NCBI GenBank assembly: GCA_013696305.1
Contig: JACCYV010000187.1
Span: forward strand, 1 to 43,353
Source of the DNA: Nitrospira sp.
GTDB taxonomy: Bacteria > Nitrospirota > Nitrospiria > Nitrospirales > Nitrospiraceae
Direction of reading: 5' to 3'
Length of the DNA stretch: 43,353 nucleotides
The position numbers and the translations under genes were made by a program. Shown here one piece after another: positions 5,317 through 8,990 of this stretch. Numbering within the stretch: position 1 is the stretch's first letter; each line of letters opens with the position of its first letter. Below the pieces are notes generated by a model. That model saw only the letters and a program-made list of their open reading frames with translations. It made no database searches and was not told where the DNA came from.

Positions 5317-7122
5317 TTATGACGGGGTCAGGGATTTTCGCAAGGCGGCGAGGGTGGACAAATCGAGGCCTGCCGACCGGAGTTGTTCATCGGTGGCCTC
5401 CGCAATCAGCTCGAGGCTGCCGAAGTGTTTGAGGAGTCGTTTCTTGCGAATCTCGCCGATGCCGGAGATTTGATCCAGTTCCGAGGAGAGCAAGGCCTTG
5501 CCTCTCAGCTTCCGGTGATAGGTCACCGCAAATCGATGGGCTTCGTCCCGAATCCGTTGGACGAGGTGGGTGGCGGGTGAGGTCGGCCGCAGGACGATCG
5601 GATTCTTTCGACCCGGCAGGAAAATGCGTTCCTCTTTGTCGCCACGGGCTTTTGCCAGGCCGATGATCGGAATCTGATCCTGTCCGACCTGTTTGAGGCC
5701 TTCGAGCGCGGCGCTGAGCTGACCCAATCCGCCGTCGATGAGAATCAGATCCGGGCGGGCGAGTTCCTCGGTGTTGCCGTAACGCCGCATGACGGCTTCC
5801 TGCATGCTGGCAAAGTCATTGGCGCCCTCGACGGTCTTGATCCGGAATTTACGGTAATCGGATTTCTTGGCCTGCCCGTCTTCCCAGACGACCAGCGAGG
5901 CGACCGATTGATTGCCCATGATGTTCGAGATGTCGAATCCTTCAATGCGATGCGGGGCCTTCTCGAGACGAAGCAGGCGTTTTAGCTCCGCTGTGGCCTG
6001 ACGATCCAATGCCTCATTGCGGAGATGGTCGGCAATCGCGGCGCCGGCATTTTCGTCGGCGAGCAGCACTAATTGATGCTTAGTGCCGCGCTCAGGCGCG
6101 ATGATACGCACGGTCTCGCCTCGTTTTTCGGTCAGCCATTGTTCGATTAGCGGGGCGTCGTCGAGTGCGGTCGGCACCAGGAGTTCTTTAGGTGGTTGTC
6201 CTTCTTTATTATAGAACTGCTCAATCGCGGAGCGGACCAACTCTTCGTCACCGGCATCGCCGGACTGGGGCCAGAAGAAATCTTTACGGCCGATCAGCAA
6301 GCCTCCGCGCACAAACAACAGTTGGAGGTCTGCCGCCGTGCCCTGCCGCGCCAAGCCGACCACATCTTGATCGGACGCGCTGATTTGAGTAATACGTTGT
6401 TTCTCAAGGGTTCGTTCGACACTGAACAGCCGGTCCCTCAACCGGGCGGCCTCTTCGAACTGCTCCCGTTCCGCCGCTCCCTCCATCTCCTGTCGAAGGC
6501 TGTCCAGCAATTCCCGGTCTCGTCCTTCGAGAAACTGGCGGACTTGCTTCACGATCCCATGGTAGTCGTCCCGGGATTGGTTGCCGATGCAGGGCGCCAT
6601 GCATCGCTTGATCTCAAACTCGATGCAGGCGCGTTCGGCCCTGCCGTTGATATCGATTTCGCACGTGGCCAGTGGGAACACCTTTCGGATGACCTTCAGC
6701 GTGTCCCGCAACGCCCCTGCCGGCGTGTAGGGGCCATAGTAGAGCGCGCCGTCTTTTTGCACGCGCCGGACGATCGAAAGCCGCGGAAACTCTTCTTTGA
6801 TCGGCAGGCGCAGATAGGGGTACTGCTTGTCGTCCCGGAGCACCACGTTGAAGCGCGGGCGGTGACGCTTGATCAGGTTGCTTTCGAGGATCAGCGCTTC
6901 AAGGACGGATCGCGTGACGATGGTTTCGAAATCGGCAATCTCGTTGACGAGCAGGTTGGTTTTCGGTGTCTGGTCGTTGCCCCTTTGGAAATACGAGCGA
7001 ACCCGGTCAGCTAGAACAGCGGCCTTGCCGATGTACAGAATCTCCTTCTTCTCATTCTTAAAGAGATAGCAGCCGGGCTGTTCCGGCAAATGGGCCAGTT
7101 TGGATTGCAGTGCGTCGGTCAT
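5317..7122 (-). CDS. uvrC: Excinuclease ABC subunit C
   Basis: UvrC makes the two incisions on either side of a DNA lesion after UvrA and UvrB have located it. From the ATG at 7122 the protein has 601 residues, the usual length; the ORF track's TTG at 7131 adds only three. The N-terminal GIY-YIG nuclease begins at once (PGCYLFKNEKKEILYIGKA). A zinc-type cysteine pattern follows (ACIEFEIKRCMAPC), then a UvrB-binding UVR motif (EQFEEAARLRDRL). The RNase H-like second nuclease includes EGFDISNIMG and LILIDGGLGQL, and tandem helix-hairpin-helix motifs close the protein (LDQISGIGEIRKKRLLKHFG). The Shine-Dalgarno is weak. The gene stands alone upstream of the dapF region in the same direction. Confidence 0.97.
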   Translation of the reverse strand: MTDALQSKLAHLPEQPGCYLFKNEKKEILYIGKAAVLADRVRSYFQRGNDQTPKTNLLVNEIADFETIVTRSVLEALILESNLIKRHRPRFNVVLRDDKQYPYLRLPIKEEFPRLSIVRRVQKDGALYYGPYTPAGALRDTLKVIRKVFPLATCEIDINGRAERACIEFEIKRCMAPCIGNQSRDDYHGIVKQVRQFLEGRDRELLDSLRQEMEGAAEREQFEEAARLRDRLFSVERTLEKQRITQISASDQDVVGLARQGTAADLQLLFVRGGLLIGRKDFFWPQSGDAGDEELVRSAIEQFYNKEGQPPKELLVPTALDDAPLIEQWLTEKRGETVRIIAPERGTKHQLVLLADENAGAAIADHLRNEALDRQATAELKRLLRLEKAPHRIEGFDISNIMGNQSVASLVVWEDGQAKKSDYRKFRIKTVEGANDFASMQEAVMRRYGNTEELARPDLILIDGGLGQLSAALEGLKQVGQDQIPIIGLAKARGDKEERIFLPGRKNPIVLRPTSPATHLVQRIRDEAHRFAVTYHRKLRGKALLSSELDQISGIGEIRKKRLLKHFGSLELIAEATDEQLRSAGLDLSTLAALRKSLTPS

Positions 7123-7276
7123 TCTTTGCAAGCAAGTGTTTCGGTCGACGTCGGTAGATTATTGTACTTCCACAACGGGGGGGACTATCCAGCACGAACT
7201 ATAAAGGCTGCGGAAACCTATTCTGGCAAACTAGACCTTGATAGTCAGCAGGTGCAGCGAGACAGGAAAACACCCG

Positions 7277-7446
7277 GCAGGATGGTCAAAATGTCCGTCC
7301 AGCGAGGCCGCAGCGAATGAAGAGCCGAGGCGTCTCGTTCTTACCCGCACGCCCCACGCCTGCCTAGACAGGCTCTTTCCCCATAGCGGTACGTTGAGGT
7401 CTGAACGATGCGAGAACGAAGCTGGCGGGCATTTTCAGCATCCTGC
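7277..7446. repeat. Interspersed palindromic repeat, copy A
   Basis: On the minus strand this begins GCAGGATGCTGAAAAT and ends ATTTTGACCATCCTGC, so its ends are inverted repeats. Inside lie CAGCTTCGTTCTCGC, CCTCAACGTACC and CTGCGGCCTCGCTGGA. The same blocks occur in the same order in copy B at 8868-8990 on the other strand. Copy A is longer because about 50 extra bases sit near its centre. It starts exactly at the dapF stop codon (shared base 7446). The design is that of a non-autonomous palindromic element. I recall similar sequence scattered through Nitrospira genomes, but could not check it. Confidence 0.75.
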
Positions 7447-8315
7447 TACCGTAGCGTTCGCACAAAGGACGGGCTGAGGGCCCCTCGGGCAACTTCTGCG
7501 ACGGGGCCCTTCATGGTCAAGCTGAAATCATGGGCAACTTCTATGTTGAGCGTGCCTCCTGGCATCTTCACCGTGACCGGGCTTTTGACCAGACCCAGCC
7601 GGACGGCGGCGCTGGCGGCAGCGCAAGATGAGGAGCCGGAGGCTTGAGTTTCTCCTGCGCCTCGCTCCCAGATGAGAATGAAGAGTTCTTTCGGTCCCGT
7701 CGGAACGGCAAACTGAACATTGGTGCGATTGGGAAACAGGACATGGTTCTCCAGGGCAGGCCCGAGCGTCAGCAGGTCCTCCCGATTCCAGACATCTCCG
7801 GTCTTCTTGAAAAGCACGCAATGAGGATTGCCGACGCTGACACCCGTGAATGGGAGCGTTCGCCCTGCCGCCTCGATGGGAACTTGGATCAGTTCGTCCA
7901 TGGGAAGCGTGCAGGGAAGGGTGGCCGGTTGAAAGGAAGCCTGCCCCATTTCGACCGTGGCCGCTATAGCATCGCCATGGCGGTCCAGATGAAGCGAGAT
8001 GACAACCCGGCCACCCTTGGTCTCGACGGTAAACTGCTTCTTTTTAGTTTTGCCGGTCGCATGGAGATAGCGAGCGAAGATGCGCAAGCCATTGCCGGAC
8101 TTCTCGGCCTCGCTCCCATCGGGATTGAAAATACGCAGCCCGAAGTCGGCTTTTTTGGAAGGAACCAGGGCGAGGATACCATCACTGCCCAGGCCCCAGT
8201 AGCGATCGCAGATGCCTCGAATCTTCCCGGCGGTGAGCTTGAACGTCAACTCCAACGGGTCCATGACCAGATAGTCGTTGCCGAGTCCGTGCCCGCGAAA
8301 AAACCCGTTCTTCAT
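7446..8315 (-). CDS. dapF: Diaminopimelate epimerase homologue lacking both catalytic Cys
   Basis: The ATG at 8315 has AAGGAG seven bases upstream and starts the family's usual N-terminus (KNGFFRGHGLGNDYLVMD); the 44 residues upstream in the ORF track are spurious. The 289-residue length fits DapF, which interconverts LL- and meso-diaminopimelate for lysine and peptidoglycan. The fold motifs are present: NPDGSEAEKSGNGLRIFARY, GVSVGNPHCV and ERGAGETQASGSSSCAA. In DapF the two active-site bases are cysteines in CGNG and in ACGTG/ACGSG. Here both are serine (SGNG encoded by tcc; ASGSS encoded by tcc). The gene is otherwise intact. It may be a natural serine-type subfamily, a different isomerase, or inactive. 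It is followed downstream by repeat copy A. Confidence 0.88.
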   Translation of the reverse strand: MKNGFFRGHGLGNDYLVMDPLELTFKLTAGKIRGICDRYWGLGSDGILALVPSKKADFGLRIFNPDGSEAEKSGNGLRIFARYLHATGKTKKKQFTVETKGGRVVISLHLDRHGDAIAATVEMGQASFQPATLPCTLPMDELIQVPIEAAGRTLPFTGVSVGNPHCVLFKKTGDVWNREDLLTLGPALENHVLFPNRTNVQFAVPTGPKELFILIWERGAGETQASGSSSCAAASAAVRLGLVKSPVTVKMPGGTLNIEVAHDFSLTMKGPVAEVARGALSPSFVRTLR

Positions 8316-8450: not shown

Positions 8451-8849
8451 TCACACGAGCGCTGTCCCGGGCGGGCGTTCGATGAGTTCCACTTCGTAGC
8501 CGTCCGGCGCATCGATAAAGATGAAGCGGCTGCCGGAAGTGGAGCGCGTGGGGCCGTCGGTAATCTTGACCTGTTTGGATCCCAATGCCCGAATCGTGTC
8601 ATCCAGATTCTCGACTTCGAAGGCGAGGTGGACCAGATCTGCTTGGACGGTCACGGGTCCACTCGCAGGAAAGCTGCAAAGCTCGATCAGTTCTTCGCTA
8701 TTGGGAACTTTCAGAAAGGCGAGATGCGATCCGCGAGGTGACACTTTGCGTTCCAGCACCTCCAATCCCAACACGTCCTGGTAGAACCGGATGGTGTGAT
8801 CCATATCGCTGACCCGCATGCGGGTGTGGAGGAGCTTTTTCACGCGCAC
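8451..8849 (-). CDS. VOC-family protein, glyoxalase I-like
   Basis: I set the start at the GTG at 8849 (AAAGGAG eight bases upstream), giving 132 residues; the ORF-track ATG is upstream of that ribosome-binding site. The protein is a single vicinal-oxygen-chelate module pair. The four positions that bind metal in glyoxalase I are filled: His in LLHTRMRV, Glu in ELIEL, His in LVHLAFEV and Glu in GYEVELIE. DMDHTIRFYQDVLGLEVLER is typical of lactoylglutathione lyases, which convert the methylglyoxal-glutathione adduct to lactoylglutathione. With no glyoxalase II or glutathione genes nearby, another VOC activity is possible. It precedes dapF in the same direction, 135 bases apart. Confidence 0.88.
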   Translation of the reverse strand: MRVKKLLHTRMRVSDMDHTIRFYQDVLGLEVLERKVSPRGSHLAFLKVPNSEELIELCSFPASGPVTVQADLVHLAFEVENLDDTIRALGSKQVKITDGPTRSTSGSRFIFIDAPDGYEVELIERPPGTALV

Positions 8850-8867
8850 GGTCCTGTCTCCTTTGTC

Positions 8868-8990
8868 GGCTGCTGAAAACATCCCCCAGCTGCGTTCTCA
8901 GTCGCTCGACCCCCTCAACATACCCTGCCCGCATACGCCTCGGGGTCCTCGTTCCTTGCGGCCTTGCCGGAGAATGTTTTGAGCAGCCTG
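8868..8990. repeat. Interspersed palindromic repeat, copy B
   Basis: On the plus strand it reads CTGCTGAAAACATCCCCC, CAGCTGCGTTCTC, CCTCAACATACCC, TACGCCTCGG, TTGCGGCCTTGCCGGA and finally TGTTTTGAGCAGCCTG. Each block has a counterpart in copy A on the opposite strand. Its ends pair as an imperfect palindrome. It lies directly 5' of the VOC gene's Shine-Dalgarno, so it would be in that gene's leader or promoter region. At about 120 bases it probably represents the basic unit. Confidence 0.72.

Follow-up and report, generated by a model that had tools for sequence, protein, structure and literature searches.

A DapF homologue with serine at both catalytic cysteine positions is a probable diaminopimelate epimerase of Nitrospira and its relatives

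The DNA analysed here, a 43,353-nucleotide stretch of Nitrospira sp. (contig JACCYV010000187.1; hereafter the window), encodes a homologue of the diaminopimelate (DAP) epimerase DapF in which serine occupies both catalytic cysteine positions. This Ser/Ser protein is probably the organism's working LL-DAP/meso-DAP epimerase, with serine as acid and base, and would have displaced the operon-encoded DapF; we put the probability of this reading at about 0.78. The genomic evidence for a role in DAP epimerisation is strong, and we infer that the protein epimerises DAP. The accepted explanation of cofactor-independent amino acid epimerases is a tuned pair of cysteines, one thiol and one thiolate, and a single Cys-to-Ser change has been used to slow such enzymes for crystallography; the protein suggests that a reaction for which two cysteines were believed necessary also exists in a natural serine form. 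It is also likely, if a little less so, that the Ser/Ser proteins of about a dozen phyla are monophyletic DAP epimerases that carry out a 1,1-proton transfer free of thiols and cofactors, and that in an essential pathway they have displaced the cysteine form.

The Ser/Ser gene (7446..8315, minus strand; 289 aa, ATG at 8315, stop codon at 7448-7446) is flanked by two genes that are its syntenic neighbours in Nitrospira, a VOC/glyoxalase-like gene upstream (8451..8882, minus strand) and uvrC downstream (5317..7131, minus strand). The catalytic-site motifs of the protein are EAEKSGNGLRIF and GAGETQASGSSSCAA. Alignment to E. coli DapF places Ser73 (TCC, 8099-8097, minus strand) onto Cys73 and Ser226 (TCC, 7640-7638, minus strand) onto Cys217, which confirms the double substitution reported in an earlier note on this DNA. 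The protein matches the DapF profile TIGR00652 over residues 5–280 with 224.7 bits (cut-off 114.65) and PF01678 with 180.3 bits (cut-off 34.7); TIGR00652, a current annotation model, thus calls it DapF over cut-off despite the difference at both catalytic residues. The profiles of histidine racemase CntK (NF033599; 12.7 bits, cut-off 300), the PhzF family (TIGR00654; 17.1 bits, cut-off 76.2) and the bifunctional DapF/glutamate racemase (NF038284; 55 bits, cut-off 350) are not reached by the window protein. A role as bifunctional glutamate racemase, suggested by the missing PF01177 match in Nitrospira, was considered and rejected, the bifunctional model being far below its cut-off and a D-amino acid aminotransferase scoring over cut-off in ten of ten genomes.

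The active site is conserved where it would bind substrate and altered around the catalytic positions. The residues that contact the proximal and distal ends of DAP in Anabaena DapF (PMC12039745) correspond to N13, N64, N75, N163, N199, E217 and R218, which are invariant in all 129 Ser/Ser homologues collected, as is Lys72 (AAG, 8100..8102, minus strand; Met, Gln or Phe in Cys/Cys DapFs), with the proviso that the scan pattern fixes residues 70–77 in the loci it found, so that for these the constancy of Lys72 and Ser73 is in part a product of the search; this does not apply to the Nitrospirota sequences, which were collected by similarity. Other residues specific to the clade are Tyr15 (Phe in Cys/Cys proteins), Ser44, Gly46 (mostly Gln), Pro65, Ile79 (Cys), Gly101, Ser229 (Gly) and Val272; Ser226, Ser229, Tyr15, Gly46 and Ile79 are in no search pattern. 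Both catalytic sites are remodelled together in the alignment of Ser/Ser with Cys/Cys proteins, with the DAP contacts unchanged. The earlier statement that all surrounding motifs are kept needs correction, as linked changes around the two catalytic sites run through the whole clade. An AlphaFold model of the protein (pLDDT 95.1, pTM 0.90) has one helix beginning at residue 74 and another at 227, which is also the case in DapF, and its top PDB matches are DapFs.

The Ser/Ser proteins form an old monophyletic clade of the Nitrospirales and, by record title, about a dozen other phyla. When named genomes were scanned with a set of patterns, AEKSGNGL among them, 80 loci were obtained, all of them Ser/Ser and one on the complete N. 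moscoviensis chromosome (NZ_CP011801.1); the phylum spread rests on record titles, which can be wrong for MAGs, and takes in Nitrospirota, Methylomirabilota/Rokubacteria, Dadabacteria, Chloroflexi, Aquificota, Bacteroidota, Bacillota, Gemmatimonadota, Cyanobacteria, Verrucomicrobiota, Armatimonadota, Dictyoglomus and FCPU426. Within Nitrospirota, the form extends to another family of the same order (f3, 65–71% identity) and to families f21 and f18, the families read outside the class being otherwise Cys/Cys. It is rare in Bacteroidota, where two of 198 genomes have a match of at least 60% identity and the next 28 sequences read are Cys/Cys. Maximum-likelihood analysis places all 62 Ser/Ser rows of the tree on one side of a branch with support of 100/99, and the branch separating them from the Cys/Cys DapFs is long (0.82). 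The Gemmatimonadota loci (about 70% identity) are placed among the Nitrospirales, and a Ser/Cys group from sister genera originates elsewhere in the tree.

In most genomes the Ser/Ser gene stands alone. A PF01678 search of the 3.25 Mb, 94% complete genome that contains the window has the window gene as its sole match, with no second canonical dapF; the earlier note had made the importance of the gene depend on this, and had named a canonical copy elsewhere together with decay of this one as grounds for refutation, neither of which is found. The Ser/Ser protein is likewise the only PF01678 protein of N. moscoviensis, and 36 of 42 Ser/Ser genomes from many phyla have no other; the remaining six also carry a Cys/Cys DapF. 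Within the same GTDB family, 140 of 147 genomes have a homologue, nearly always as a single copy; about 110 of them have copies 76–92% identical to the window protein, and a second group is at about 31–37%. The motifs are Ser/Ser in all 39 near sequences read and Ser/Cys in the 12 examined from the other group. A few draft genomes give no match; every single-contig genome of the Ser/Ser lineages gives one. The same serines are encoded by the closed chromosome of N. moscoviensis and in a dozen single-contig genomes. Judged from these comparisons, the Ser/Ser DapF is not a local mutation or a product of decay.

Selection on the gene is strong, with dN/dS of about 0.05–0.07 between the window gene and its relatives. 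All six serine codons are used at site 73 (TCN in 76 sequences, AGY in 53), so serine itself is held there; at site 226, 128 of 129 sequences have TCN. The proposal that the matching double change marks a selected variant is borne out by this purifying selection and by the replacement of the operon dapF of sister lineages.

That replacement is seen in the arrangement of the lysine genes. In 12 sister-genus genomes and at loci of families f2 and f18, dapF lies inside a lysA-dapF-dapA-dapB cluster with 918–1343 bp between lysA and dapA, and this operon copy is either Ser/Cys or Cys/Cys. All 19 Ser/Ser Nitrospirales genomes examined, including that of the window, lack dapF between lysA and dapA, where the gap is 27–83 bp, and have the Ser/Ser gene at another locus, which in Nitrospira is between the VOC gene and uvrC. 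Family f18 has both an operon Cys/Cys dapF and a separate Ser/Ser gene, as expected of an intermediate, the latter adjoining a ribulose-phosphate 3-epimerase-like gene. Such a reciprocal pattern, one gene lost where the other is present, is the strongest evidence for functional replacement of the operon dapF by the Ser/Ser gene. Outside Nitrospirota, dapL and/or lysA is within about 5 kb of the Ser/Ser gene at 16 of 54 loci; two different types of DapL are found there, and one of these proteins is confirmed by a score of 638 bits. The neighbouring VOC gene was considered as the real epimerase and rejected: it scores 32 bits against a requirement of 115 in the methylmalonyl-CoA epimerase model and is glyoxalase-like, and its adjacency to the Ser/Ser gene is not seen outside Nitrospira.

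The remaining parts of the pathway are present. The window's genome has dapA, dapB and lysA over their cut-offs, together with murE and a homologue of the TIGR03540-type DapL that passes the cut-off in relative G077. LysA is found in 41 of 41 relatives and is orthodox (540 bits, cut-off 297.9), and all MurE sequences read have a DNPR motif, which we take to be specific for meso-DAP. A meso-DAP dehydrogenase (Ddh) over cut-off is present in none of 61 relatives and in one of the 42 Ser/Ser genomes elsewhere. The aspartate/glutamate racemase family PF01177 has no match in nine of ten Nitrospira-type genomes (the window's genome, G012, G030, G038, G061, G064, G072, G077 and N. moscoviensis), and D-glutamate is probably made by transamination in these genomes.

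In the proposed mechanism the fold of DapF and its entire DAP-binding pocket are kept, and the thiol/thiolate pair would give way to a serine on each face of the substrate alpha-carbon. Ser73 and Ser226 both lie at a helix N-terminus and would act as general acid and base on opposite faces; the helix N-termini and their dipoles, possibly with Lys72, Tyr15 and Ser229, could stabilise the alkoxide and lower the pKa of the serine hydroxyl. Alternatively, Lys72 itself may be the direct base. Counting against serine chemistry is the much lower acidity of a serine hydroxyl compared with a thiol, and against the epimerase reading in general the long branch to the Cys/Cys DapFs. HisR with the engineered changes C67S/C209S (PMC11602996) and the Cys-to-Ser crystallisation mutants of DapF (PMC12039745) are crippled or hindered, and the remodelled surroundings would therefore have to matter. 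A precedent for serine as one partner is the natural Ser/Cys 4-hydroxyproline epimerase of the proline racemase superfamily (PMC4113996). A literature search, which missed most subscription papers, gave no published description of a natural Ser/Ser DapF and no usable chemotaxonomic data on meso-DAP in Ser/Ser carriers.

The earlier note had offered a serine-type epimerase, a different substrate or a binding protein, and the evidence favours the first. An unlikely alternative is a protein that binds DAP, or a compound resembling it, and catalyses another reaction or none, with meso-DAP made by an epimerase that has escaped recognition. The loss of both catalytic thiols, fixed throughout the clade, would agree with this, and so would the two settings in which a cysteine enzyme is kept, namely the six genomes with an additional Cys/Cys DapF, in some of which the Ser/Ser protein could have another job, and the f18 operon with its Cys/Cys copy, where the Ser/Ser gene is beside the ribulose-phosphate 3-epimerase-like gene. 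Against it, the clean exchange with the operon dapF would demand a coincidental second enzyme in every lineage, the contacts to the distal L-centre are wholly kept, and with PF01177 absent from nearly all the Nitrospira-type genomes there is no obvious cofactor-independent substitute. Somewhat less probable again is the formation of meso-DAP without any epimerase, in which the D-centre would be introduced into L-2-amino-6-oxopimelate by a diverged Ddh-like dehydrogenase or a D-amino acid aminotransferase, leaving the Ser/Ser protein an auxiliary role. In favour of this, a Ddh match of any kind at E≤0.001 occurs in 25 of the 61 relatives; a subset of Nitrospira genomes (L053-L056 and others, the window's not among them) has a Ddh-related protein of about 300 aa that scores about 100–129 bits against a cut-off of 180.6, and the aminotransferase is in all ten genomes. 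A Ddh bypass was nevertheless rejected, there being zero Ddh matches in the window's genome and in the 99–100% complete G061, G072 and G077; moreover, retention of DapL, which makes LL-DAP, would be pointless, and the aminotransferase is accounted for by the absence of a glutamate racemase match.

Two further explanations have little left to them. That the peptidoglycan and lysine enzymes accept LL-DAP, leaving an unneeded epimerase gene as a relic, is very improbable, as its sole favourable point is the absent cysteines, and it is opposed by the strong purifying selection, the lack of broken copies among the sequences examined, the orthodox LysA and the DNPR motif of MurE. The window's genome is a draft of 379 contigs, which would leave room for an error of sequencing, assembly or binning, but this is refuted by the closed N. 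moscoviensis chromosome and the dozen single-contig genomes that share the residues.

Among the closest known systems is canonical DapF (TIGR00652; E. coli, H. influenzae, Anabaena), with which the protein has in common the fold (TM 0.84–0.90 to E. coli and P. aeruginosa DapF, 36–38% identity), the DAP-contacting residues and the pathway neighbours; it differs in having Lys72, Tyr15, Gly46, Ile79 and Ser229 with its serines instead of the Cys/Cys thiol-thiolate pair. The H. influenzae mutants C73S and C217S (PDB 2q9h and 2q9j), both among the fold matches, have a single serine at the same positions, but these are laboratory changes in a Cys/Cys background, whereas the Ser/Ser clade is natural and fixed at both sites. 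The 4-hydroxyproline epimerase (PMC4113996) is of related fold and has a natural serine as one of its two acid/base residues, but retains one cysteine and acts on another substrate; proline racemase-type structures are 11–16% identical to the window protein. HisR and CntK are DapF-fold relatives with changed substrate (PMC11602996) and are Cys/Cys, unlike the window protein. The Ser/Cys DapF of the sister genera (L033-L044) has serine at position 73 and is the only homologue found in its genome, but differs in its cysteine at the second site, valine at the N163 position, location in the lysA-dapF-dapA-dapB operon and identity of about 29–34%; it apparently reflects an independent Cys-to-Ser change at site 73. 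As a sole-copy enzyme in a pathway essential for lysine and the cell wall, the Ser/Ser form would make the need for thiols directly testable, and it opens the matter of how a serine hydroxyl could be tuned for the same chemistry. For inhibitor design, alkylators of the DapF cysteines (e.g. aziDAP) should not trap it in the same way.

Some variation is seen among members of the clade. In most of those from outside Nitrospirales, the Glu of GAGET at residue 222 of the window protein (the E. coli E213 position) gives way to Tyr, Phe or Trp. At locus L050 (G054:C22) the VOC-dapF pair is tandemly duplicated, with two intact Ser/Ser dapF copies adjacent, and a genome of family f21 (G194) also has two Ser/Ser dapF copies (L127 and L128), at least one of which is preceded by a lipoprotein-like gene.
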